Part shown: one piece after another, positions 3,886-24,098 of the stretch
How the letters are laid out: each line of letters starts with the position of its first letter
How positions within the stretch are numbered: position 1 is the stretch's first letter
IMG/VR virus record: IMGVR_UViG_3300017758_000137
Span: 1 to 24,098 of that record
Length of the DNA stretch: 24,098 nt
Strand: one strand, 5' to 3'
Origin: a virus
Position numbers and translations under genes: made by a program
Notes under the pieces: model-generated
Seen by the model: only the letters and a program-made list of their open reading frames with translations
What the model was told of the DNA's origin: nothing
Database searches by the model: none

Positions 3886-5276
3886 TACAATGATGCCTTC
3901 TCTGTTGCTACTTCAACGTCTAGTGTTTGCCTATCGATCTTTATATACCCTTCTGTCACTAACTTTCTGATGTCGGTGATTACTTTGCTTGTGTACACAG
4001 TTTGTACGTTGTCGGACGAACCAGTGTACTCTACATCTGATTCAGCCACTGTCAGTCCCTTACGAGAACCTATGTCTTTGTAGTACAGTCCTGAGGCAAT
4101 CTCGTCTCTGACCGCCGAATCGTTTGAAACTAGATTAAATGCCTCATCTGCTGTGAGATACAACACTGTGTCTTGCACTGGATTTGTTATCACTGTGTTG
4201 TTTGCTTGATTTTGATTATCTGCCGTTCCTTTTGCCGTGGCTACTACCGCGGCACCGGCCAACACCGCCGCACCTACAGAAAATTGTGCGACAGGATTAG
4301 TTATAGTACCTGCCTGTTTGCCTACTTCTAAAACACCATCCTTGGCTATGCCTTTGAGCTCTTCTTTGACATCTCGCTTCTTAATTTTCTTAGCGTTGTT
4401 GTACGTGTTAGAAGCTGAAAGTATTGCACCAAGTATATTACCTGACTGCACGTTTCTTATTACAGAGCCAACTCCATCTACCACACCACCTGGGCCAAAA
4501 ATACTATTAGTGCCTCCACCTAAAATTGTAAGCGGACTAGGTTCATTGTCGTAGTGTATTGTTGCAAAGCCAGGCACGTTGTTCTTGTTCACTATACCTG
4601 ATTTGTAGATTACTGTTTCATAAAATATCTGCATCGTGTTGTTCATTACGCCTGCACCATCCGCCTGGTCGAGGTTGTCATGTGAGAATGATCCTATAAC
4701 AGGATTGACCAAAGTCATTGATGTGAAACGCTGTTTATGTAATACAAATAATTCAATACTCTTTAAGTAAGGCTTCTGTCTTTCTTTTGGCGTGTCTAGA
4801 CCAAACTTTGTTATTTTTTTTTGGTCTATGCCATCATAGTAATCATCCTTTGTGTTTGAAATTGTTAGATCACTGTTCATTCCAACAGAGTCTGCTATAT
4901 TGTATTCGTAGTATTTCTTCCAGAATGCGTTGACTGTGTCTGCATGATCATCATGGAATGTTATGTTTACCGGTTCGTATTGGATTCTGGTAGCCGCGTA
5001 CATCTTTTTGTTGTACTGTATTTTTTCCTCAAGGTTCAGACCGTACTTAGGCAAATCAGCACTCTTGACCAGCATGTTCAGTTCATATCTTTCTGCCTGA
5101 GAAAATTTGGTCTGGAACAATGATTCGTCAAGGTTGAACACCACGTGGAACAGGAATTTTTGTTTTGGCATCAACTTGTGATTGTTGTCTATGTACAATC
5201 TCGATGCGTGTCTATAGTCCTTCATTCCGGGTAAACCGTCTTGGAAGCCTTCTAGGAAGTTGTTTATGCTTGGCAT
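3885..5276 (-). CDS. Tail-tube-fold structural protein, candidate tube cap/initiator (gp48/gp54-like)
   Basis: 463 residues. Residues about 30-225 look like a tail-tube domain: KFLFHVVFNL strand, ELNMLVKSADLPKYGLNLEE, a strand ending YEPVNITFHDDHADTVNAFW, and later strands with MQIFYETVIYKSG. The same layout is seen in gp19 (binding loop, then a WDPITITLRDD-type strand). The C-terminal half is glycine-rich, then has a hydrophobic run (about 329-348, VGAAVLAGAAVVATA) and a mixed tail. ATG 5276 is preferred over an in-frame GTG at 5294 because a perfect TATAAATA ends 5 nt before it. It lies directly after gp19 and its terminator. In T4, tube-like proteins at the baseplate end are gp54 (initiator) and gp48 (cap); which one this represents cannot be decided by eye. 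Confidence 0.65.
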   Translation of the reverse strand: MPSINNFLEGFQDGLPGMKDYRHASRLYIDNNHKLMPKQKFLFHVVFNLDESLFQTKFSQAERYELNMLVKSADLPKYGLNLEEKIQYNKKMYAATRIQYEPVNITFHDDHADTVNAFWKKYYEYNIADSVGMNSDLTISNTKDDYYDGIDQKKITKFGLDTPKERQKPYLKSIELFVLHKQRFTSMTLVNPVIGSFSHDNLDQADGAGVMNNTMQIFYETVIYKSGIVNKNNVPGFATIHYDNEPSPLTILGGGTNSIFGPGGVVDGVGSVIRNVQSGNILGAILSASNTYNNAKKIKKRDVKEELKGIAKDGVLEVGKQAGTITNPVAQFSVGAAVLAGAAVVATAKGTADNQNQANNTVITNPVQDTVLYLTADEAFNLVSNDSAVRDEIASGLYYKDIGSRKGLTVAESDVEYTGSSDNVQTVYTSKVITDIRKLVTEGYIKIDRQTLDVEVATEKASL

Positions 5277-5281
5277 AGTGT

Positions 5282-5289
5282 TATTTATA
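5282..5289 (-). promoter_or_regulatory. Perfect T4 late promoter octamer TATAAATA
   Basis: The minus strand reads TATAAATA, then ACACT, then ATG 5276. It is an exact match to the T4 late consensus, lies just downstream of the terminator at 5295-5323, and restarts transcription after gp19. Confidence 0.8.
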
Positions 5290-5294
5290 GTCAC

Positions 5295-5323
5295 AAAAAA
5301 AGCGCCTATAAAGACGCTTTTTT
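5295..5323 (-). terminator. Rho-independent terminator after gp19
   Basis: Stem 5296-5304 pairs with 5315-5323 (AAAAAAGCG / CGCTTTTTT) with a 10-nt loop. On the minus strand the stem runs into seven T. The A/T-symmetric stem may also act on plus-strand transcripts. Confidence 0.85.
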
Positions 5324-9555: not shown

Positions 9556-9915
9556 ATGCAGTACAAAGATCGACCATTGTGTAAGAAGTGTAAGTCTAAG
9601 CCAAGAGCATATGCCTACAAGCGTTATGGCAAGGTCTATTGGCGTAGTCAGTGTGGCACATGTATTCGTAAAAATTCAGGAAAGAAAATTGGTGGGGTAA
9701 CTGCATTACAAAGATCTGGATATAAGCTCAAAAAGAAATGTGAGCTGTGTGGTTTTACTGCCCAAGACAAGTCTCAAATGGATGTGTTATTTGTGGATGG
9801 CAATTTAAGAAATACTACAACCAGCAACCTAAAAACTGTTTGCGCCAATTGCCAACGGCTTAGTACCACCCGTAGGCTTGGATGGCGTGTCGGAGATCTT
9901 GTCGCTGACGATTAG
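9556..9915 (+). CDS. HNH-like zinc-binding protein lacking catalytic histidines
   Basis: 119 basic residues. Four CxxC pairs are visible: C9/C12, C33/C36, C62/C65 and C96/C99. The C-terminal half has the layout of phage HNH endonucleases (CELCGF, ...DVxxxDGNxxN, NLKTVCANC). The position that should be His is F79 and the His after the last CxxC is Q100, so the metal-dependent nuclease site is probably dead. DNA binding through the zinc knuckles and basic N-terminal region remains plausible. It is the only plus-strand gene between gp13 and the left edge, has its own late-type promoter 5 nt before the ATG, and its last 87 bases overlap the 3' end of the kinase gene on the other strand. Confidence 0.85.
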   Translation: MQYKDRPLCKKCKSKPRAYAYKRYGKVYWRSQCGTCIRKNSGKKIGGVTALQRSGYKLKKKCELCGFTAQDKSQMDVLFVDGNLRNTTTSNLKTVCANCQRLSTTRRLGWRVGDLVADD

Positions 9916-10482
9916 ACTGTCTATCTTAGCGTAAAGTTGTTCCTTGGTGCCATCGTTATGTATTACAAAGTCAAATTCTTCTTTTGCCCATGCATACTCA
10001 GACGTATGTACACCAGTAGGTTGGATGTTTCCTTCAACATAGTTTGTAAACCATTCAGGATCTTTACCCCTCTGCACTAAAATAATTTTGCCACCATGTG
10101 CCCTTATTTGCTTGACCTCATTTGGAAACCTAGTATCTGCTATGACCGTGTTTAGTCCTTTGTATCTTCCTATACAACTATCCACCCATATCGCATCATA
10201 CATTTGGCCACGCATTACTTCTGTACCAAAGTATTGTAGTACCCATCTGGGGGTTACGGGCTTGCCAAACTTTTCACTCCAGAATCTATCTGGTTGTTCT
10301 CGCCAGTGCCTGCTGGATTCAGTGTCTCCTTCAAGCATATCCCTGTCCCAATTAAACATAGAGGCTACAGCATCTTTAAGACTTTTTGCAAAACTATCTT
10401 TTTTATAACCATGTTGCTTGACTAATCTGTCAGCAACAGTGCCCTTGCCGGAACTTATCAAACCTACTATACCTATCAGCAT
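9829..10482 (-). CDS. Deoxynucleoside monophosphate kinase (T4 gp1-like)
   Basis: 217 residues. It phosphorylates dNMPs to dNDPs for phage DNA synthesis in the host cytoplasm. The P-loop is GLISSGKGT (7-15). A lid/substrate region includes RHWREQPDRFW (59-69). TVIADTRFPNE (112-122) is the Asp-Thr-Arg strand typical of phage dNMP kinases, followed by GGKIILVQR and VHTSEYAW (158-165). The family core ends near residue 190; the last ~29 residues are encoded in the overlap with the HNH-like gene on the opposite strand. Unlike the structural genes it has a sigma70-type promoter ending 6 nt before the ATG, so expression earlier in infection is likely. Confidence 0.9.
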   Translation of the reverse strand: MLIGIVGLISSGKGTVADRLVKQHGYKKDSFAKSLKDAVASMFNWDRDMLEGDTESSRHWREQPDRFWSEKFGKPVTPRWVLQYFGTEVMRGQMYDAIWVDSCIGRYKGLNTVIADTRFPNEVKQIRAHGGKIILVQRGKDPEWFTNYVEGNIQPTGVHTSEYAWAKEEFDFVIHNDGTKEQLYAKIDSLIVSDKISDTPSKPTGGTKPLAIGANSF

Positions 10483-14164: not shown

Positions 14165-14593
14165 ATGAAAGAAAATATAGTATGCTCCGGTGCACTTTTT
14201 TATTCTACAAGCACGAAGCGATTCTTATTCCTACAGAGAACTGACAGGAAGACTGCAGGTGCATGGGGATTGGTAGGTGGAAAGTCTAAGTTTCTTGAGA
14301 GTGCATTTGAAGGATTGAAGCGTGAAATACAAGAAGAAGTTGGTGACACACCAAAGTTCAAGAAAGTTATTCCATTAGAAATGTTCACGTCAAATGATCA
14401 GAAGTTTTTCTTCCACACATACGTTATAGCCATAGATACAGAATTTTTACCCAAGCTCAATGATGAACATTCAGGCTACTGCTGGACCTCATTTGAATGC
14501 TGGCCTAAGAACTTGCACATGGGTCTAAAGAATACATTGAACAACAAAGCCATCAAAGGCAAGTTACAGACTATATTAGATTTGATAACTTAA
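14165..14593 (+). CDS. Nudix hydrolase
   Basis: 142 residues, cytoplasmic, metal-dependent pyrophosphohydrolase of the Nudix family. The Nudix box is complete at residues 39-60: G39, E45, R53-E54, E57-E58, G60 (GKSKFLESAFEGLKREIQEE then VG). It is preceded by SGALFYSTSTKRFLFLQRT and GAWGLVGGK, and followed by FHTYVIAIDTEF. The substrate cannot be told; T4 NudE-type dinucleotides, oxidised dNTPs or RNA caps are all possible. It has its own sigma70-type promoter although it trails gp15, so it may be expressed early as well as by late read-through. Its stop abuts, with no gap, the stop of the convergent gene 14594-15034. Confidence 0.92.
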   Translation: MKENIVCSGALFYSTSTKRFLFLQRTDRKTAGAWGLVGGKSKFLESAFEGLKREIQEEVGDTPKFKKVIPLEMFTSNDQKFFFHTYVIAIDTEFLPKLNDEHSGYCWTSFECWPKNLHMGLKNTLNNKAIKGKLQTILDLIT

Positions 14594-15034
14594 TTAACCA
14601 GCACTTATTTTTACAGCACCGTTGTCGTTCCAAAGTTGACCTGCATTACTAGGATCGCTTGTTGGCAAATCCGTTGCCATAACTTTTCCTGAATTGTTGA
14701 TCATAAGTGTGCCGTTGTCGTCTGGTAGGTCAATGTTTCTTTTCGTGGTCGATGTGCCTGACACAAAAGTTTTTTTACCGTCTTCTGTCTGCCACACGAA
14801 TGGAACATCACGGTGTGCGTAGATGGCATTGTTGGCTATGGTCAGTAATGGTTTGTGCTGTCCATCTTTCCTGCCGATAATTTGTATAACGCTCTGGTCT
14901 GCACCCTTCTTGTTGTCCTTGATGCTACCTTTGATCGAACCTATTCTGATCTCTTCTCCGGCATCGTTTTCACCTTTGAATTCTAACCAAGTATCTGCTT
15001 GGATTTCGATGTTACCGCTTACTTTTATACTCAT
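14594..15034 (-). CDS. Small fibre-like virion protein
   Basis: 146 residues, beta-rich. MSIKVSGNIEIQADTWLEF begins like other fibre-type proteins here. Then come IRIGSIKGSIKD, VIQIIGRKDG, a RNIDLPDDNGTLMINNSG segment typical of the C-terminal region of T4-like appendage proteins, and a short end LPTSDPSNAGQLWNDNG, a fragment of the module shared with gp18. Function is not known beyond a likely virion or appendage component. ATG 15034 lies 5 nt after an AATAAATA core and has no Shine-Dalgarno. It is separated from the large fibre gene upstream by a terminator, so it is its own unit. Confidence 0.75.
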   Translation of the reverse strand: MSIKVSGNIEIQADTWLEFKGENDAGEEIRIGSIKGSIKDNKKGADQSVIQIIGRKDGQHKPLLTIANNAIYAHRDVPFVWQTEDGKKTFVSGTSTTKRNIDLPDDNGTLMINNSGKVMATDLPTSDPSNAGQLWNDNGAVKISAG

Positions 15035-15039
15035 GCAAG

Positions 15040-15047
15040 TATTTATT
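15040..15047 (-). promoter_or_regulatory. T4-type late promoter core before 15034
   Basis: The minus strand reads AATAAATA, then CTTGC (5 nt), then ATG. Predicted +1 is the A of the start codon. Confidence 0.7.
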
Positions 15048-15056
15048 AACGCATAT

Positions 15057-15086
15057 AAAAAAAAGGCGACCCGAGAGCCGCCTTTT
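15057..15086 (-). terminator. Rho-independent terminator after the large fibre gene
   Basis: Stem 15061-15068 pairs with 15079-15086 (AAAAGGCG / CGCCTTTT) with a 10-nt loop. The minus strand continues into eight T (15057-15064 on plus are A). Its arms closely resemble those of the terminator at 23416-23441. Confidence 0.88.
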
Positions 15087-15107: not shown

Positions 15108-15115
15108 TATTTATT
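15108..15115 (-). promoter_or_regulatory. Orphan late-promoter core upstream of a terminator
   Basis: The minus strand reads AATAAATA, overlapping the stop of the large fibre gene. The next element is the terminator at 15057-15086, so it would yield only about a 45-nt RNA, unless read-through feeds gene 14594-15034. Confidence 0.4.
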
Positions 15116-17339
15116 AGTTGTTTGTCCTCACTGCACAGTTTACCAATTTGATTCCTGCGTCTGTTGAACTTTCTAATGCTCTACCAATAACGTTGAATGG
15201 TGAAATTGACTCACCTGACGCCACTGCTCTAGCACAACCTTTTACTGACGAAGTAACAAGTCTTTGACCTTTTGTTACAGCACCTGTAACTCTAACTGGT
15301 GTTCTACCTGTCATTGCTACGTATGGGTGTGTGTCATTGTTACCTGCCGCCGCGTTCATGGCGTATGCTGGTTGCTCAGATATCACACCAAAAACTTGAT
15401 CTGATAAGTCCGATGTTGTTTCTGTGATCTCTGCGTCACCACCAACCATTACTACTGCACCTGCTGACATAGGAGCGTCTGCTTCGAAACGCTCGGCAAC
15501 GTCCGCGTACTGAGCCGATGTTGCAACGGCGTGTACTACGTTCGCCCTAATGTCCACAAGGGACGCTGTGCCTGATGGTCCTTCAGTGTTTCCTTCTGCC
15601 CTTCTGAAAGCAGTAAAGGCACCACCCGCGTTACCGTGAATAGTTGTTCCGTCATCTGCAAACGCTTCATCCCACGCCCAAAGCAATGGCATTTCAGTTG
15701 CAGTTGAACCTTCACCTCTGTTAATCTGTAAACCTGAAACTGTAGGCATACCTGAGTTTGCCGACACGTTTCTGTTAACTTCGATGATGTTGTCCTCGAT
15801 TGATAGTGTTGTTGTATTTACGATTGTCTCTGTACCGTCAACAGTCAAGTTACCACCAATTCTAAGGTTGTTTGTAACAACAGTTTCACCAGTTGCTGTG
15901 ATCGTACAAAGTCCTGAAGATGCAATAGTTAGGTTCGTACCATCACCTTCAATCTTCTCACCATCATCACCAAATACAAGTCCGATGTTGTTGGGTAAGT
16001 TAACATCTGCTGTTGCTGTCAAGTTGATGTCAGCACCTGAATTGATTGTCAAGTCTGTGTCATTTGACTCAATCTTTTCACTTGCGTTGTCATCAAAAAC
16101 TATACCTATGTTTTTTGGAATGTGTACATCTGACACCGCTGTAAGGTTTATCTTTGCACCTGAATTGATAGTTAAATCTGTGTCGTTTGATTCGATTTTC
16201 TCAGTTCCGTTTGCATCAAATACAAGTCCAATGTTTTGTGGAATGTGTACATCTGAAGTTGCCGCTAAATTGATCTTGGCGCCTGAAGTTACTGTAAGGT
16301 CTGTGCTGTCACCTTCAATTTTCTCACCAGTACCAAATGTTATACCTACGTTGGCAGGTATTACTACATCTGTTGTTGCTGTAAGGTTGATTGCACCACC
16401 CGATGTTACTGTAAGGTCTGTACTGTCACCCTCGATCTTCTCACCTGTACCAAAAGTGATTCCCACGTTTGCAGGTACCACAACGTCTGTTGTCGCTGTA
16501 AGGTTGATTGCACCACCTGATGTTACTGTTAGGTCTGTGCTGTCACCCTCAATTTTTTCACCTGTACCAAATGTTAAACCAACGTTTGCTGGTATCACAA
16601 CGTCTGTCGTTGCAGTTAAATCAATTGCGTCACTTGATGCGATTGTTAACTTTGTACCATTACCCTCAATCTTCTCACCGTCGTCTCCAAAGGTCAAACC
16701 AATGTCTGCCCCAAGATTTACATCACCGTTTGCACCAACTGTGATTGTTAGGTCAGTATCGTCTGATTCAATCTTTTCGTGTGTACCAAAAGTGATTCCT
16801 ATGTTTGCAGGTATGGCCACATCTGATGTTGCTGTTAAATTTATTTTGGCACCCGAGTTAATTGTTAAATCTGTACCATCTGATTCAATCTTCTCGTTGG
16901 CATCGACAAATTGTAATCCTTTGTTGGCCGGTATAACTACATCTGATCCTGCGTTTAATAGAATGTTTCCAGTTCCTTTGGCAGTGATGTTTAGGTCAAC
17001 GTTTGTTTCTCCACTTGCTCCTAGGATTGGACCATTACCTGTTGCCGCATTTGTAATTTCTAATTCATTTACTGCTGATGTAGTTGTTTGAAAGATAACC
17101 GACTCATTTCCATTTGCATCTGCAATGAATCCTGCGTCTGCTATTTTTGGTGCTGTTAATGTTTTGTTTGTAAGTGTTAGTGTTGCCGCCGCTTGGTCGT
17201 CAACATACTTCTTGTTTGCGAACTGACCGTCAGCACTTGGTGCCGCTGTAGCTCCGCCTGTAATGGTGTTGGCTGATGCTGATATTACAATATCACCAAC
17301 TTCTAGTCCATTGTTTACTCTAAAGTTTCGTGTTGTCAT
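15114..17339 (-). CDS. Tail fibre/appendage protein with nine KIEGD repeats and a C-terminal processing-like domain
   Basis: 741 residues. 1-132 is a beta-rich N-terminal part (FRVNNGLEVGD; ANKKYVDDQAAATLTL; NITAKGTGNILLN). 133-484 holds nine tandem copies of a ~39-residue unit (DVVIPANVGITFG, EKIEGD, TDLTVTSG, INLTATT). 485-525 is GNLTVDGTETIVNTTTLSIE, a motif frequent in marine phage fibres. 608-725 (SAQYADVAERFEA, VFGVISEQPAYAM, AMTGRTPVRV, KGQRLVTSSVKGCA, VIGRAL) resembles the C-terminal domain of autoprocessed fibre/chaperone proteins such as Peptidase_G2; cleavage is not shown. The likely role is a host-contacting fibre or whisker. The start has GGGAG 10 nt upstream and a late core 35 nt upstream; a terminator follows. 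Confidence 0.85.
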   Translation of the reverse strand: MTTRNFRVNNGLEVGDIVISASANTITGGATAAPSADGQFANKKYVDDQAAATLTLTNKTLTAPKIADAGFIADANGNESVIFQTTTSAVNELEITNAATGNGPILGASGETNVDLNITAKGTGNILLNAGSDVVIPANKGLQFVDANEKIESDGTDLTINSGAKINLTATSDVAIPANIGITFGTHEKIESDDTDLTITVGANGDVNLGADIGLTFGDDGEKIEGNGTKLTIASSDAIDLTATTDVVIPANVGLTFGTGEKIEGDSTDLTVTSGGAINLTATTDVVVPANVGITFGTGEKIEGDSTDLTVTSGGAINLTATTDVVIPANVGITFGTGEKIEGDSTDLTVTSGAKINLAATSDVHIPQNIGLVFDANGTEKIESNDTDLTINSGAKINLTAVSDVHIPKNIGIVFDDNASEKIESNDTDLTINSGADINLTATADVNLPNNIGLVFGDDGEKIEGDGTNLTIASSGLCTITATGETVVTNNLRIGGNLTVDGTETIVNTTTLSIEDNIIEVNRNVSANSGMPTVSGLQINRGEGSTATEMPLLWAWDEAFADDGTTIHGNAGGAFTAFRRAEGNTEGPSGTASLVDIRANVVHAVATSAQYADVAERFEADAPMSAGAVVMVGGDAEITETTSDLSDQVFGVISEQPAYAMNAAAGNNDTHPYVAMTGRTPVRVTGAVTKGQRLVTSSVKGCARAVASGESISPFNVIGRALESSTDAGIKLVNCAVRTNN
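15888..16943 (-). repeat. Nine tandem ~117-bp coding repeats
   Basis: Nine in-frame units of 34-41 codons in the large fibre gene. Copies 4, 5 and 6 are almost identical in protein yet differ at many third positions. The unit shared with the neighbouring gene is also present at 18497-18898. Confidence 0.9.
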
Positions 17340-17349
17340 GGTTCCATAT

Positions 17350-17382
17350 CTCCCGCATGATTGTTAATTTGTTGTATTTAGC
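17350..17382 (-). promoter_or_regulatory. Late promoter and Shine-Dalgarno for the 741-residue fibre
   Basis: GCTAAATA at 17375-17382 overlaps the stop of the upstream gene, and GGGAG at 17350-17354 lies 10 nt before ATG 17339. The 35-nt gap leaves a proper leader. Confidence 0.6.
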
Positions 17383-19861
17383 CTGCTAATGCAGATATTC
17401 TATAGCCAGATACTGTGGTGCTTCCACCTGATGTGCTTGATGCAAATAGCTCAAGGCTGTTTTCACTTGATGTGTCAAAACCAGCTGTGAATTCTAGTTG
17501 TGTTGTGCCTTTTGTTGAAACAAATGGTCCATTTGCCACTGCTGGCACACCTGGTGTGGCCGCTGTATAAACTTCCTGAATGCTGTATGCACCCTCGGTC
17601 CCGTTAGCACCAACTATAAAGTAAACTGCACCGTTGGCATCGTCTATGTCCATTAGATCTATGGCTGTAGCTGTTGAACTGACTGTAACAGACGCGAATG
17701 CTTTTTGGTTTGCATTGCTCTCAGCAGTCATGTTGTCTTTCAATAAAATTTTGTGTATAGTAACATTTAAGTTAGTTTCAAGACCCGCGGCACTGACTAC
17801 AACGTTGTCGCCGGATATTGCCGCTGTAACAGTAATCAAAGAATTGTTACCTGAAATAGTGTGTCCATAGGAAGTAACAAATGCGTTTGTGCCATCGTGT
17901 ACGACCAATGCTTCGACCACGTCCATCTCGGTCTTGCTGTCGTTGTCAACGCTGATGAAGTACTTGGCTCCCCTGAAAGTTCCATGTGCAAATGTATCTA
18001 TGGATTCTGACGCAGAGTCAACATCCGTGTTGCTTGTGGTCACAGTGTTTCCCCTAGTGGCGTCTGTGGTGCTGGAGGACATAGCAACTTTATAGAAACT
18101 GGCCACGCAATCAGCCGATGCTCCTGCGGCCCTTAGCCTAAATTGCCCGTTGCTGACATCTGTGGTAAGAGTTGGAACGTTGCTACCACCGGCAGTTTCA
18201 ATCCCCCTCCGGTTACCCAAGAAAGATGCCGAGTCATTGTTTGTTATTGCTAACATTTCTGCACTGATCACTTCATTTATTACGTCGTTGTAAACCAAGA
18301 AATAGAAAGCACTGTCTATGAATGTTGCATTTATGCTGTCTATCGTCCTGGCGGCTGTTCCAAGATGTTTATTATTTCTCACTGTCGCTAAAGTGTCATC
18401 AGATACGGTAGTTGCAACTGTGTCAAAACTCAAAGTACCACTTCCGTCTGTGACAAGAGCCTGTCCGGCTGTGCCATCTGCTGTTGGTAGATTAAATGCT
18501 GTACCACCAGAGGTTATAACAAGTTTACTACCATCAGATTCGATCTTTTCATTTGCATCTGTGAAATGTAAACCAACGTTTGTAGGAATAATAACATCGG
18601 TCGCCGCTGTCAATTTTATATTGTTTCCGGTTATTGTTAAGTCAGTCCCGTCGCCTTCGATTTTTTCTCCATCATCACCGAATGTTATACCAATGTTAGC
18701 ACCAATGTTGATGTCTCCACCTGATCCTACTGTGATTGATAAATCGGTGCCATCTGATTCAATTTTCTCTGCCGTGGCAAAAGTAAGTCCAACGTTGACC
18801 GGAACGTTGATGTCGGTTGTAGCTGTTAGGTTGATGTCATTGCCTGATGTTAAAGTAAAATCTGTGCCATCCGAAGATATAGATTCGTTTGAATCGTGAA
18901 ACTGTAAAGTTGGTGTTCCACCACTGTCAGTTAAAAGTAAGCCGGTGTCATGAACATGTGTAAGTGCTATTTCATCATTGGCACCAAATGATAGTATTGC
19001 ACCATCGTGCTGTAATTCTAGGTCTTGTGTTAGTGTTACATCTCCATCAGAACCTATTGCTATTGCATCTGTGTCAGATGTGTGCCCAATGGTTGTTCCA
19101 TTTATAATTACACTGTCAACTGTCAAAGTTGTTAAGGTACCTAGAGACGTGATATTTGATTGGGCCGCACCTGTTACGGTTGCGGCTGTCCCAGAAACAT
19201 TTCCAGTGACGTTACCTGTCAATGGACCTGCAAAAGCATCGGATGTCACTGTGCCATCAAAGAAAGCGTCTTTAAATTCTAGACTTGAAGTTCCTAGATC
19301 TATTTGATTGTTTGTGACTGGAGTTAGTGCACCGTCACCTATCGTTAATCTACCTGAACCACCTGTTGCTATTGTTATAACATCGGATCCTGAGAAAGTG
19401 ATTGATGTGTTACTGTCGGCGTCACCGCTGATTGAATCTATTGATAAACTTCCGACATTTGATATGTTTTGATCATTGAAATCAACAGTACCTGTGACCA
19501 CAAGGTTACCATCAATCTCTACGTTATCGTTGATATTGATAGTGGTTGAGTCAGCGGAACTAATAGACGTCCCACTTACTGTTAGGCCATCCATTATGAT
19601 GTTACCTGTGCCTGATGTTGAGAACGTTAGATCTGCATTTGTTGGTGCTACTAGGTTTGTGATTGATATGTCACCTTCGGCACCAAACTCTAGGCCTGTG
19701 CCTGCACCATTTACTTTAAGAACCTGTCCTGCTGAACCTACTGCTGTAAGACCTGTACCACCATTTGCTACTGGAATTGATTCTCCCGTTTGGAATTCCG
19801 CCATTCCAGTGGCCACATTTGATGCATTGAATACTACTCGTACCGGTGTCTTATCTGCCAT
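17378..19861 (-). CDS. Large tail fibre/structural protein with triplicated C-terminal beta domain
   Basis: 827 residues from ATG 19861 (MADKTPVRVVFN); a GTG 33 bases further up is in frame but less likely. Order: NGGTGLTAVGSAGQVL (33-48, a fibre N-terminal motif), NADLTFSTSGTGNIIMDG, GNLVVTGTVDF, SIDSISGDADSNTSITF, FDGTVTSDAFAGPLTGNVTG (201-220, a PLTGNVTGNVSGTA-type collar), LSFGANDEIALTHVHDTGLLL (290-310, frequent in marine phage virion proteins), and four KIE-type repeats (322-455). Then comes a domain present three times (506-597, 619-712, 731-812), each with an AxYFxV strand. No enzyme motif is seen. It is probably an adhesin or fibre. A late core lies 62 nt upstream; the Shine-Dalgarno is weak. 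Confidence 0.82.
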   Translation of the reverse strand: MADKTPVRVVFNASNVATGMAEFQTGESIPVANGGTGLTAVGSAGQVLKVNGAGTGLEFGAEGDISITNLVAPTNADLTFSTSGTGNIIMDGLTVSGTSISSADSTTININDNVEIDGNLVVTGTVDFNDQNISNVGSLSIDSISGDADSNTSITFSGSDVITIATGGSGRLTIGDGALTPVTNNQIDLGTSSLEFKDAFFDGTVTSDAFAGPLTGNVTGNVSGTAATVTGAAQSNITSLGTLTTLTVDSVIINGTTIGHTSDTDAIAIGSDGDVTLTQDLELQHDGAILSFGANDEIALTHVHDTGLLLTDSGGTPTLQFHDSNESISSDGTDFTLTSGNDINLTATTDINVPVNVGLTFATAEKIESDGTDLSITVGSGGDINIGANIGITFGDDGEKIEGDGTDLTITGNNIKLTAATDVIIPTNVGLHFTDANEKIESDGSKLVITSGGTAFNLPTADGTAGQALVTDGSGTLSFDTVATTVSDDTLATVRNNKHLGTAARTIDSINATFIDSAFYFLVYNDVINEVISAEMLAITNNDSASFLGNRRGIETAGGSNVPTLTTDVSNGQFRLRAAGASADCVASFYKVAMSSSTTDATRGNTVTTSNTDVDSASESIDTFAHGTFRGAKYFISVDNDSKTEMDVVEALVVHDGTNAFVTSYGHTISGNNSLITVTAAISGDNVVVSAAGLETNLNVTIHKILLKDNMTAESNANQKAFASVTVSSTATAIDLMDIDDANGAVYFIVGANGTEGAYSIQEVYTAATPGVPAVANGPFVSTKGTTQLEFTAGFDTSSENSLELFASSTSGGSTTVSGYRISALAG
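17426..18346 (-). repeat. Three diverged copies of a ~95-residue domain
   Basis: Residues 506-597, 619-712 and 731-812 of the 827-residue protein share an ID...F.xAxYFxV strand, a central segment with ALVVHDGT or an equivalent, and a Gly/Asn turn before a closing strand. Similarity is low but aligned in order. Read by eye. Confidence 0.55.
18497..18898 (-). repeat. KIESDG-type fibre repeats, second array
   Basis: Four units (one beginning NESISSDGTDFTLTSG) are homologous to the nine-copy array at 15888-16943, indicating gene duplication or module exchange between the two fibre genes. Confidence 0.8.
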
Positions 19862-19923
19862 AATGTTCTCGTTCTGTCCCCGGCCTTCTTGCACTCACCG
19901 GATGGATATCCTATCAACAAGTG

Positions 19924-19931
19924 TATTTATT
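19924..19931 (-). promoter_or_regulatory. T4-type late promoter core for the 827-residue fibre
   Basis: The minus strand reads AATAAATA followed by CACTTG, 62 nt before ATG 19861. It lies 8 nt after the stop of 19940-20932, giving a long leader. Confidence 0.6.
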
Positions 19932-19939
19932 GTGTGTTT

Positions 19940-20932
19940 TTAAAATTGGAATAGCGTGATTCCAGCGGCATTTGCCGACAATGCTGTTCCGTCTGATAGC
20001 GTGAATGTTTGTTGGGCATCTGTGTACACAGGAACGTCTTCGACGGTGGCGTTGAATTCAAGTGTCAGATCACCGTCTTTGGCCAATAGCTGTGCATCAC
20101 TAAATGATGTGCTACCATCACTGACAAATAGTTTAACATTTTGCACAGGTCTCGCAAGTGTACCTGCCTTGGCACCAGTAAGTGATATACCGTTGGTTCC
20201 AACCTTACTACCTGTGGGCAGTGTTGCACCAGTGGCTGAGATAGAAAGTGATCCTGTGCTGTCTGATGATATTGTTGCTCCGCCTAGGTCTATTGTTTCA
20301 GCCGCTACATATAAAGTTTGCCAACGTCTACTGGCACTTCCTAGCTGAAATACTCCATCTTGGCTTGGTATAAGGTTTCCTGCAACTTGTATGCCTGCAG
20401 ATGAATCTTCTGTGGAAAGTGTTGTTCCTGCCACCCTGATACCTTCTATCACAACATTCCCGTTGCTTGAATTCAATGTAAGGTCAGCATTGCTTGGTGC
20501 GGCAATTGTAGATCCCACGAATGAAAGATCACCTATAGACACGTTTGCTATTTCAGTGTCAACATATGCTTTTATTGATTGCTGTGTCGCCAAGGCCGTC
20601 GCTGAGTTGGAAGACAAGGTGTCCTGATCCAGTATTGTTGTCACACTTGCACCTGAACCTATTTTGAAGGTATCATTTATCAAAACAATTCCTGTGCCTG
20701 ACGTCTGCAAAGTCATGTCTGCGTTCGATGGTGCTGACAACGTTGATCCTATTGCACTTAGGTCACCTAGACTCGATGAGCCTCCTCCTCCGACCACTGT
20801 GCCGCCGGCAGTGACACCGTCACCAATCCTTAGACTACCTGTGTCTACATCTACTGCTAGGTACCCGTCTTCTATGATGTGTGTTGCTAGATTGTAGTCC
20901 TTGTAAGATCCTACCAGTTTCCTGAATGCCAT
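19940..20932 (-). CDS. Fibre/structural protein with Mtd-like N-terminal segment
   Basis: 330 residues. The N terminus contains HIIEDGYLAVDVDTGSLRIG followed by DGVTAGGTVV, the motif found at the start of phage receptor-binding proteins of the major-tropism-determinant N-terminal type. Two copies of a NADLTLxSSxGN unit follow (APSNADMTLQTSGTG and APSNADLTLNSSNGN), then GNLIPSQDGVFQLGSASRRW (a region often just before the tip). It ends in beta strands DAQQTFTLSDGTALSANAAG. Preceded by AAGGAGCACAC before ATG 20932, 9 nt after the stop of 20942-21376, so it is translated from the same mRNA. No reverse transcriptase or variable-repeat pair is seen, so no diversity generation is claimed. Confidence 0.78.
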   Translation of the reverse strand: MAFRKLVGSYKDYNLATHIIEDGYLAVDVDTGSLRIGDGVTAGGTVVGGGGSSSLGDLSAIGSTLSAPSNADMTLQTSGTGIVLINDTFKIGSGASVTTILDQDTLSSNSATALATQQSIKAYVDTEIANVSIGDLSFVGSTIAAPSNADLTLNSSNGNVVIEGIRVAGTTLSTEDSSAGIQVAGNLIPSQDGVFQLGSASRRWQTLYVAAETIDLGGATISSDSTGSLSISATGATLPTGSKVGTNGISLTGAKAGTLARPVQNVKLFVSDGSTSFSDAQLLAKDGDLTLEFNATVEDVPVYTDAQQTFTLSDGTALSANAAGITLFQF

Positions 20933-20941
20933 GTGTGCTCC

Positions 20942-21376
20942 TTATAGCCCGGATAATGTTTTTAGTCTCTGAACGAACTCACTTTCGTTTTTGGCTTCCT
21001 TGTTCTTCATTTCGGCTGGCACCCCAGGATTCTCTCCGTTAGTGACTTCTGGTTGTTTTACTAATGGTTCGTCTACTCTCACTTCTTGATCAGGTGCAGT
21101 CTCGTCTGCATCTTGTGTGATGTTATCAAACTGTGCCAAGTCTTTGCCTGCTTCTTTTTTCTTCATTTCTAATTCTTGTTGCAATGGATACACTGATGCC
21201 ACTGTGTTTGGGTCATCTGAATCTACCTTACCTGGATTATCTGTATTGCTGTCTTTTGGTTCGCTATCTACGTCTGAGACCGACACGCCCTTTGCTCCCA
21301 TAAGTTGATTTAGCAATGCTTCGTCTTCTTTGTCAGGAATTGCCTTAATGTTGATGTCTATCTCTTTATATCTCAT
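20942..21376 (-). CDS. Acidic hydrophilic hypothetical protein
   Basis: 144 residues rich in D, E, N and P and probably largely disordered, with no recognised domain. The N terminus (MRYKEIDINIKAI) is the only strand-like segment. Heptad-like charged stretches include YPLQQELEMKKKEAGKDLAQF (mostly helical) and the C-terminal KNKEAKNESEFVQRLKTLSGL. It starts 3 nt after the upstream stop with no Shine-Dalgarno, so translation probably depends on coupling to 21380-22225. Position inside the fibre operon suggests an assembly chaperone or accessory component; this is inference. Confidence 0.7.
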   Translation of the reverse strand: MRYKEIDINIKAIPDKEDEALLNQLMGAKGVSVSDVDSEPKDSNTDNPGKVDSDDPNTVASVYPLQQELEMKKKEAGKDLAQFDNITQDADETAPDQEVRVDEPLVKQPEVTNGENPGVPAEMKNKEAKNESEFVQRLKTLSGL

Positions 21377-21379
21377 CTA

Positions 21380-22225
21380 TTAACTTACTGCGGCACTAAA
21401 TGGTGTTGCCGGATTAGCGCCGGCCGACACTCTCATTTGACCAGCCACTGCATATTTGTCTGCGGCAATGTCGATCAATGTTAATGTGTCTCCTACTAGT
21501 CCACCTTGTGTCCCACTGTTCAATGTTATCGTGTCTGATGCGGCCACAGTTGGAAATGATGTCACTGCGTTGCCATCCTCATCAAGATACATTATTTGTC
21601 CTGCGAAAGTATTGTTGGCATCAGGTGCCTGAATTTTATATGTTGTCGATCCTCCCATGGCAACACTGACGATGAAATGATAGATATTGCCAGAACCTGT
21701 TGCATCTGGCATTGTCAACACAACGTTTGCGTTTCCTCCAACTTCACCGAGTAGAAGTGTTCTACCTGCGTGTTCGGACTCTGTGACTGCGTCAGTGGCT
21801 GTGAAACTGTGTAACGCTTTTTTAAAAGAGCCTGTCAGTGCCAATGTGCTCGATGTCGTTAATGCACCAGTACCACTTGCTGTTATGCTTAAATCAGCAT
21901 TTGAACCATTTGAACTTATCACATTGGTTGTTAAACTATTTGCTGTGATGTCTGTTGCCGTAACATTACCACTGAATATTGCGTTGCCGTTCTCACTCAT
22001 GTCTAGTTGTAATGCTGTGATTGTTGAAGAACCATCTAGACCTTTTAATAGAATGTCATTGTTGGTACCCATAGATTTGATCACAAGGTCAGATGTTATT
22101 CTGCTGATTCTACCAAATTCTGTCCCGCCGTCCTGTAGTTTTACGTCGGCGTTGTCCGCGTCAAGTATGATATCTCCGACTGCGTCAATTGTTAAATTGT
22201 TTGATGTTCTTATTGTTTTCGACAT
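21380..22225 (-). CDS. Fibre-like virion protein
   Basis: 281 residues, rich in Ser/Thr/Asn/Gly and beta-structured. MSKTIRTSNNLTIDAVGDIILD and IFSGNVTATDITANSLTTN are typical of the shaft region of T4-like fibres. NADLSITASGTGAL repeats the motif seen in the downstream fibre genes. The C-terminal half (TLLLGEVGGNANVVLTMPDA; FAGQIMYLDEDGNAVTS; VAGQMRVSAGANPATPF) forms a separate domain. It is first of three co-transcribed genes. A late core ends 7 nt before the ATG and a second lies about 110 nt upstream. Confidence 0.75.
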   Translation of the reverse strand: MSKTIRTSNNLTIDAVGDIILDADNADVKLQDGGTEFGRISRITSDLVIKSMGTNNDILLKGLDGSSTITALQLDMSENGNAIFSGNVTATDITANSLTTNVISSNGSNADLSITASGTGALTTSSTLALTGSFKKALHSFTATDAVTESEHAGRTLLLGEVGGNANVVLTMPDATGSGNIYHFIVSVAMGGSTTYKIQAPDANNTFAGQIMYLDEDGNAVTSFPTVAASDTITLNSGTQGGLVGDTLTLIDIAADKYAVAGQMRVSAGANPATPFSAAVS

Positions 22226-22451: not shown

Positions 22452-22685
22452 TTATTTTCTGCTGTAGATATGATATAAAATCCAAACTGCGACCAATCCG
22501 ATCAACCCTTGATCAGAAAACCCTTGCAGTACGCCCTGGACATTTCCTATTACGGAAACGTTTGGCCAGAACGGAATACCTTGACCATTGAAAAGGATCT
22601 CTAAAATGATTCCTAACGCAATAAGTGAAACACCCACGTCAGCTAATCCTTTAGCCCATCCTTTGATTTGGTTCATGATATCCAT
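22452..22685 (-). CDS. Small two-helix membrane protein, possible holin-like
   Basis: 77 residues. Two hydrophobic segments: about residues 15-33 (LADVGVSLIALGIILEILF) and about 60-73 (GLIGLVAVWILYHIY), separated by a 25-residue loop with GQGIPFWPNVSVIG, and ending in RK. No Cys. The basic C terminus after the second helix and the two-helix hairpin are the features of a small holin or similar envelope protein; no family-specific motif identifies it. The Shine-Dalgarno (GGGGAGG, 7 nt before the ATG) is among the strongest in the window and a late core lies 46 nt upstream, so abundant late expression is expected. Alternative: a virion membrane-contact protein. Confidence 0.75.
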   Translation of the reverse strand: MDIMNQIKGWAKGLADVGVSLIALGIILEILFNGQGIPFWPNVSVIGNVQGVLQGFSDQGLIGLVAVWILYHIYSRK

Positions 22686-22808: not shown

Positions 22809-23384
22809 CTATATACAGAACTCTTTGTAAAGCTCGTAATCGTAACTGTTATAATCTTTGTGCCATGAAATAAATTCTTTGCTCAATTTGTGTCTTTCAG
22901 CGTATCTTTGGTAATCTTCGTTGCTTCTATTTGTGTTTAGTCTTGGTTCTTGATCTATTTTCAAGATATCTGCGACTTCGTTCCAACTGTCTTCAAATTT
23001 TTCTATGCAAAAAACTTTTTTGAAACCGTTCCCAAGTGTGTTCCTCACCGTTTGATATTTTGTTTCAATGTCGACATTGGGGTCCAGCAACAAATAATTC
23101 TTGTACAGCCACAGTATAATAAAATTGCCAGCAAGGTTCCTGCAATGCTCTTCGAAAGTATGGCCGTCAATGTCTCCTTTGCCCATGTCATAGTTGTAGT
23201 GTGAAATATCTCTGTCTAATGGATCACGCAACCAAACGAAATGCGTGCCAGGTGTACGCACTGTGCTGTTGTGTCCCACTGCATAATCCAATTTGCTGAT
23301 TTGTTTTTTCTCTGCACGATCTTCTAAACGCATTCGGAGAGAGCTACCACCTGTCTTTGGTATGTGATGAAAGCAGTAATGCAT
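22809..23384 (-). CDS. Phage-encoded sulfotransferase-like protein
   Basis: 191 residues from ATG 23384. The N terminus has the 5'-phosphosulfate-binding loop of PAPS-dependent sulfotransferases, HIPKTGGSS (7-15), right after a strand. The second signature, LRDPLDRDISHY (52-63), is the 3'-phosphate-binding motif with Arg and Ser. Later charged helices (CIEKFEDSWNEVADILKI; about 126-143) match the general fold. It is shorter than typical (about 250). The probable reaction is transfer of sulfate from PAPS to a carbohydrate or other acceptor; the acceptor is unknown. ATG 23384 is chosen over a TTG at 23417 because a late core ends 5 nt before it. It lies between the major capsid gene, its terminators and the membrane protein gene, as its own late unit. 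Confidence 0.82.
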   Translation of the reverse strand: MHYCFHHIPKTGGSSLRMRLEDRAEKKQISKLDYAVGHNSTVRTPGTHFVWLRDPLDRDISHYNYDMGKGDIDGHTFEEHCRNLAGNFIILWLYKNYLLLDPNVDIETKYQTVRNTLGNGFKKVFCIEKFEDSWNEVADILKIDQEPRLNTNRSNEDYQRYAERHKLSKEFISWHKDYNSYDYELYKEFCI

Positions 23385-23389
23385 ACCGT

Positions 23390-23397
23390 TATTTAAA
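23390..23397 (-). promoter_or_regulatory. T4-type late promoter core for the sulfotransferase
   Basis: The minus strand reads TTTAAATA, then ACGGT (5 nt), then ATG 23384. Leaderless geometry, no Shine-Dalgarno. Confidence 0.6.
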
Positions 23398-23415
23398 TGG
23401 AGATAGTACCGCCAC

Positions 23416-23441
23416 AAAAAAAGGCGACATGGGCCGCCTTT
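23416..23441 (-). terminator. Rho-independent terminator downstream of gp23
   Basis: Stem 23420-23426 with 23435-23441 (AAAGGCG / CGCCTTT), 8-nt loop, then a run of T on the minus strand (23416-23422 on plus are A). Confidence 0.9.
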
Positions 23442-23445
23442 CTTT

Positions 23446-23472
23446 GAAAATAAAATAAGCCTTGGCTTATTT
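23446..23472 (-). terminator. Second hairpin overlapping the gp23 stop codon
   Basis: Inverted repeat AAATAAGCC (23453-23461) and GGCTTATTT (23464-23472), 9 bp with a 2-nt loop, followed on the minus strand by TATTTTC. The gp23 stop TAA (23467-23469) lies in the stem. It makes a tandem terminator with the hairpin at 23416-23441. Confidence 0.7.
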
Positions 23473-24098
23473 GAATTTTAAGTTTCCAGATGTGATTGCT
23501 ACTAATCCAACGTAGTCAGCCGCGTTACCAAGTGATGATGCAGTGTTTGTTAACTCTACATAACCGTATCTTGTTAAGAAGCCTACTACTGGTTCGAAAG
23601 TAGATGGATCTAAAACAACACCTGAAGACATTAGAGGAATGTAAGGACAATAGAACGCTGGTGCGTCTGCCTCACTTGCTCCTTTGTAACCAACTAGTAC
23701 TGATGTACCGTCTGCCGCGTAAGCGTCAACGTATACTCTCATAGCACCGTTTAAAGTTCCAACGAATTTAGTATTTGTTGGTGCTTCAAAAGTACCTTCA
23801 GTTGATCTTGCAAATGCTGAAGTTGTTGCTGATTGAAGAACTGTTAAAGCAGTTGGAGATACTACAGCGTAGTTTCCAGCTCCTCTTCTTGTTCTTGTTG
23901 CGATTTGGTTTGCAACTCTGTTGATAAGAACAGCCAACGCCGCGTGTTCATCACCAACGAAAGTAGCTGTACCAGATACAGCAGATTGGTCAAAAGTCTC
24001 AGCGGCAGTACCTGCCAATGTTCTTAATGAACCAATTACTTCTTGATCGATTTCTGCAGTAATCTCTTGAGCTAATGCCGCCATGATTTCTGCTTCAA
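23467..24098 (-). CDS. 23: Major capsid protein gp23, C-terminal part (cut by window edge)
   Basis: The last 210 residues are visible; the reading frame continues past the right edge. HK97-fold capsid protein of T4-likes. Matching landmarks are RRGAGNYAVVSPTALTVLQ (T4: RGEGNFIIASRNVVNVL), LNGAMRVYVDAYAADGT, VLVGYKGASEADAPAFYCPYIPL (strong match to GYKGPNEMDAGIYYAPYVAL) and FEPVVGFLTRYGYV. The C terminus ends LVAITSGNLKFK and is shorter than in T4. The stop codon is within a terminator stem, and two hairpins follow. An internal ATG at 24084 is not the true start. Confidence 0.97.
   Translation of the reverse strand, partial: EAEIMAALAQEITAEIDQEVIGSLRTLAGTAAETFDQSAVSGTATFVGDEHAALAVLINRVANQIATRTRRGAGNYAVVSPTALTVLQSATTSAFARSTEGTFEAPTNTKFVGTLNGAMRVYVDAYAADGTSVLVGYKGASEADAPAFYCPYIPLMSSGVVLDPSTFEPVVGFLTRYGYVELTNTASSLGNAADYVGLVAITSGNLKFK

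Follow-up and report, generated by a model that had tools for sequence, protein, structure and literature searches.

A predicted small sulfotransferase as cargo of a variable slot behind the major capsid gene of marine T4-like phages, with the host surface as its candidate target

Why a phage should carry a sulfotransferase gene directly behind the gene of its major capsid protein, and what such an enzyme would sulfate, are the questions raised by the locus analysed here, which lies in a stretch of 24,098 nucleotides (IMG/VR record IMGVR_UViG_3300017758_000137; hereafter the window) from a marine T4-like phage of bacteria. Several marine phages are already known to carry sulfotransferase genes, the role of which has been stated to be unclear (PMC10580990); the divergent short family described here, together with the genomic slot in which it sits, adds a clue to their purpose. 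The gene spans positions 22809-23384, as an earlier note on this DNA had reported, and it is read on the minus strand, which that note did not give, with the ATG at 23384 and the stop codon at 22809-22811; the plus-strand frame over the same positions is interrupted by stops. An upstream TTG start, which would open a 202-aa ORF, was rejected in favour of the ATG because homology begins at the ATG methionine and the promoter falls within the longer ORF. The 191-aa product carries the two PAPS-binding signatures claimed for it, namely the 5'-phosphosulfate loop of PKTGGSS type near the N-terminus, HIPKTGGSS (23334-23366; HHIPKTGGSS being residues 6-15), and the 3'-phosphate motif RDPLDRDISHY (23196-23228; residues 53-63), both on the minus strand and given with approximate codon limits. 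Neither a signal peptide nor a membrane helix is apparent in its sequence.

The position directly downstream of the major capsid gene likewise stands, since the upstream neighbour in the reading direction (23467-24084, minus) is the C-terminal part of a gp23-type major capsid gene (PF07068, E 3.6e-60) that continues past the window end. On the other side lies a gene for a 77-aa probable membrane protein (22452-22685, minus), preceded by its own Shine-Dalgarno sequence and a late-type motif, CCTAAATA, at -54, with fibre-like and virion genes further downstream. The fibre-like proteins, encoded at 15114-22225 (minus), are long and repeat-rich, and some of them have weak tail-spike, endosialidase-end or Peptidase_G2 matches. 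A NUDIX-domain gene (14165-14593, plus; E 2e-11) and a deoxynucleotide monophosphate kinase gene (9829-10482, minus; E 1.5e-12) are also found among the virion genes of the window.

For the enzyme class, the earlier note had named structure prediction and a profile search as checks. An AlphaFold2 model built from 34 diverse sequences was confident (pLDDT 91.2, pTM 0.86; an earlier run on 19 close sequences had been poor, pLDDT 58), and its best solved match by Foldseek was the heparan-sulfate 2-O-sulfotransferase 4ndz (E 1e-4, probability 1.00, TM 0.66 by query length), followed by other sulfotransferases, with the carbohydrate enzyme outranking the small-molecule SULT enzymes; matches in a viral structure library were to phage and giant-virus sulfotransferases. 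The profile search gave a genuine match to Pfam PF03567, Sulfotransfer_2 (20.6 bits, E 5.5e-4), but fell just short of the curated gathering cut-off of 22 bits, and we therefore term the protein Sulfotransfer_2-like and not a formal member of that family. PHROG 3347, 'Galactose-3-O-sulfotransferase', was also matched (E 4.3e-5). Searches of NCBIfam returned nothing relevant and of Rfam nothing, sequence searches of the PDB with the single sequence and with a profile gave no sulfotransferase match, so that among solved structures the fold search alone succeeded, and Sa_NUDIX and other sub-threshold Pfam matches were treated as chance.

Scans of viral contigs recovered 26 loci at 64-100% identity to the window protein and about 65 relatives in total, with identity down to about 30% over the aligned part, all of them on uncultured contigs. 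In cultured phages, tblastn gave chance-level matches only and no relative of either the window protein or the longer form described below, and no relative was confirmed in genome contigs searched with narrow peptide patterns, where distant bacterial relatives are still possible. Across 34 representatives H6, H7, P9, K10, G13, S14, G37, H38, R53, P55, R58, D59, S61, N64, Y65 and D66 are invariant, among them the R, P, R and S of the 3'-phosphate motif RxPxxRxxS, and this stretch aligned with independent phage sulfotransferases by hhalign (probability 82.9, E 9.2e-6) over 24 columns only. The catalytic base of carbohydrate 2-O-sulfotransferases is a histidine, and H38 lies within the invariant GH, just ahead of the strand bearing R53. 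The median dN/dS of 0.18 for 28 pairs of short-form genes indicates purifying selection. Motifs, PHROG match, fold and selection thus agree with the sulfotransferase identity first proposed, and the protein is very probably an enzyme of this class, for which transfer of sulfate from PAPS is predicted.

Compared with longer relatives, the proteins of the window's clade, here called the short form, are missing about 48 residues, the gap falling after the PAPS loop and before the invariant GH. Twelve short representatives form one group (support 100/99) in a midpoint-rooted tree, for which a deletion in the short-form ancestor is the natural reading. Contacts with the acceptor are plausible in the missing part, and acceptor choice may hence differ from that of the long forms.

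The neighbourhood proved variable. In a survey of the best 80 capsid matches, whose proportions of empty and filled loci are not frequencies, capsid gene and 77-aa gene are separated by a geneless stretch of about 200 bases in L033, L034, L035, L036, L038 and L040 (among the matches listed), by the short form in the window, L003, L012, L025 and others, and by the long form in L030, L031, L118-L127 and L131-L135. Elsewhere the sulfotransferase gene has company: a gene of the KDO8P/DAHP synthase family (PF00793, E 3e-75) precedes it in L011, L020 and L128, and the same pair stands at a contig end in L027; an FkbM-type methyltransferase gene precedes it in L113 and L136; two genes, one of the DctP family, precede it in L002, L022, L109 and L112; in L129, a locus without a visible capsid gene, it comes after a carbamoyltransferase gene; and a radical-SAM/SPASM gene follows it on the other strand in L010, L017 and L026. 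In a distant clade (L139-L147) the gene lies near the capsid gene on the opposite strand. The sulfotransferase gene is thus cargo in a variable slot of which the 77-aa membrane gene is the fixed border. As to the DctP-family solute-binding protein itself (PF03480, E 4e-29; L109:5034-5969), it has no obvious signal peptide, and its partner is a protein of 222-237 aa without a Pfam match, the pair being seen in L002, L022, L029, L109 and L112.

Capsid proteins of the main-family loci are 92-98% identical to that of the window (99-100% in a few partial comparisons, e.g. 100% over 178 residues in L018), and their sulfotransferases 43-78%; in L131 and L134 a 98% identical capsid protein accompanies a sulfotransferase of 46% identity. 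Capsid proteins of 92-98% identity also go with slots that are empty or hold different cargo. This pattern fits replacement of the cargo by recombination, although the divergence also includes a share of faster cargo evolution.

The earlier note had also claimed a late promoter for the gene, and comparison bears this out. A T4-type late promoter, TTTAAATA (23390-23397, minus), occupies -13 to -6 of the ATG, and its spacing is kept within a base in short-form loci that have the gene directly behind the capsid gene and likewise in several long-form loci. In the 138.7-kb L012 contig, 18 genes, mostly lacking a Shine-Dalgarno sequence, have the motif NNTAAATA beginning at -16 to -12, whereas 500 shuffles gave 1.3 such genes on average and 5 at most. 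Ten bases upstream of the promoter lies a conserved block, GTGGCGGT (23408-23415, minus), and next to it, after the capsid gene, a terminator-like hairpin with a T-run, AAAGGCG-N8-CGCCTTTTTTT (23416-23441, minus), which was read by eye; a terminator scan flagged the same place in L124, not in the window, and in the window it found no terminator directly after the sulfotransferase stop. T4 late promoters have the form TATAAATA and occupy roughly -13 to -6 of the start, which would place the start approximately at the ATG, and the sulfotransferase mRNA is predicted to be late and leaderless or nearly so. Compact modules of this kind, with a T-run hairpin, NNTAAATA, an ATG 5-6 bases on and no Shine-Dalgarno sequence, occur in the window at 23384-23441, 15034-15085 and 5276-5320 (minus) and also in L150-L156, suggesting that leaderless late mRNAs may be widespread in this T4-like group.

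Not every copy has this arrangement. Several long-form relatives have TTGACT-17-TAAAAT at the same place instead of the late motif, and the distant L145 has TTGACT-17-TATAAT there; the scan for sigma-70-like promoters has a high background, yet the position is identical each time. These relatives seem to carry a sigma-70-like promoter, probably an early one, and if these promoters are real, such copies are expressed early and the argument from late timing is weakened.

Concerning the target, we consider that the locus is best explained by a small sulfotransferase, carried as late-transcribed slot cargo, that most likely sulfates a glycan of the host surface. To this explanation as a whole, of which a small soluble protein of carbohydrate-sulfotransferase fold, predicted to be PAPS-dependent, forms part, we give an even chance. 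The enzyme would take sulfate from host PAPS and place it on a sugar of a surface glycan, presumably an LPS or capsule precursor accessible from the cytoplasm; a cytoplasmic acceptor is favoured because no signal peptide or membrane helix is apparent. The altered charge or structure of the surface could then reduce binding by competing phages or by the phage's own progeny, with superinfection exclusion or release from debris as the likely benefit. Two observations count against a surface glycan: no glycan gene adjoins the sulfotransferase gene in the window itself, and the frequent co-cargo of a DctP-family protein with a protein lacking a Pfam match includes no obvious glycan gene.

No PAPS-synthesis gene was found in most of the large relatives, so that host PAPS must suffice there. 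An APS-kinase-like P-loop gene in the contig of L113 was not relied on as a PAPS source, since it scores better as AAA_33; this gene (L157:1336-1776, minus; APS_kinase 38.7 bits, above cut-off, and AAA_33 52.9 bits) adjoins a probable nucleotidyltransferase gene and might, with some uncertainty, supply PAPS. Four of the eight large contigs encode another Pfam-grade sulfotransferase elsewhere, and in that of L025 the second one stands beside genes that by eye resemble surface-sugar genes. Among the portal and prohead genes of L012 (1298-1912) and L025 (1257-1880) there is, in addition, a gene with weak matches to alpha-2,3-sialyltransferase (CST-I) and MptE-like proteins, both under cut-offs, and a similar-looking gene adjoins the second sulfotransferase in L028. 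Among the genomes scanned, those of alphaproteobacteria have the genes closest to the PF00793 cargo, and the best cultured match of the capsid protein is that of a Sinorhizobium phage (79%), which hints at an alphaproteobacterial host.

Sulfation of a small molecule or another intracellular host target (a metabolite, lipid, nucleotide or protein) appears unlikely to us, even though sulfotransferases take many substrates, the acceptor is not readable from sequence, the residues missing from the short form would lie near the probable acceptor side, and PHROG places relatives of the window protein among moron, auxiliary and takeover genes; the lead of a carbohydrate sulfotransferase over SULT enzymes in the fold search and the leaning of the co-cargo to surface sugars speak against such a target. 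Still less probable is sulfation of the virion, in which capsid or tail-fibre residues, or attached glycans, would be modified in step with late capsid synthesis, the target that the earlier note had preferred from late timing and position. The location directly behind the capsid gene, the late promoter and the nearby fibre-like genes would suit it. However, phages with near-identical capsids lack the gene (L035 and others), L131 and L134 carry their much diverged copy despite an almost unchanged capsid protein, a sigma-70-like promoter seems to replace the late one in some relatives, and distant relatives have the gene on the opposite strand. The comparative anatomy points away from the virion, and the list of targets first proposed is narrowed, a glycan of the host surface being favoured because of the co-cargo and of the empty and swapped slots at near-identical capsids. 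That the short form is degenerating or inactive, retained by chance or to serve some other role, is very improbable: the loss of about 48 residues and the Pfam score under cut-off would agree with it, but the PAPS-binding residues and the GH are invariant, selection is purifying, and the short forms, diverse as they are, make up one well-supported group.

If the host-surface reading is true, phages give marine bacteria a different surface charge while infecting them, and this would affect both superinfection and the sulfated polysaccharide that lysis sets free. The sharing of the slot with other probable surface-sugar genes suggests what phage sulfotransferases are for, and relatives with an empty slot or swapped cargo at nearly the same capsid constitute a natural experiment in which host surface and virion can be told apart. 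A wider and rather doubtful proposal is that the slot could be reserved for the exchange of genes that remodel the host surface (by sulfation, KDO-type sugar synthesis or methylation), which would be swapped along with compact leaderless promoter modules; phages with nearly the same capsid would then each change the infected cell's surface in a different way.

Among known systems, the gene resembles a moron of tailed phages, being an additional gene set among conserved ones, headed by a hairpin and a promoter of its own and missing from some close relatives; unlike a moron, it has in the window a promoter of the late type that the phage itself uses, and no terminator was found directly behind it. 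Larger cyanophages carry LPS gene clusters of unknown function (PMC3037559). In Sinorhizobium meliloti, sulfated LPS and the LPS sulfotransferase LpsS are known, as PMC12445080 relates, citing Cronan and Keating 2004, and sulfation of LPS in this Gram-negative alphaproteobacterium offers a possible functional likeness; LpsS is bacterial, not phage-encoded, and is annotated in that paper as Stf0-family. With heparan-sulfate 2-O-sulfotransferase (4ndz, 3f5f; PF03567 type) it shares the fold and both PAPS-binding motifs, but identity is about 16%, its 191 aa compare with 287 aligned target residues, and it is phage-encoded, without an apparent membrane anchor and below the PF03567 cut-off. The phage sulfotransferases compared, those of Synechococcus phage ACG-2014f, Prochlorococcus phage P-SSM7, Roseobacter phage SIO1 (Gp5.1) and Ralstonia phage phiRSL1, have the same viral sulfotransferase fold, and their PHROG 3347 matches the window protein, although identity in the fold matches is only about 14-20%; the short family is divergent and of single origin, and belongs to a kind already known, the phage sulfotransferases.
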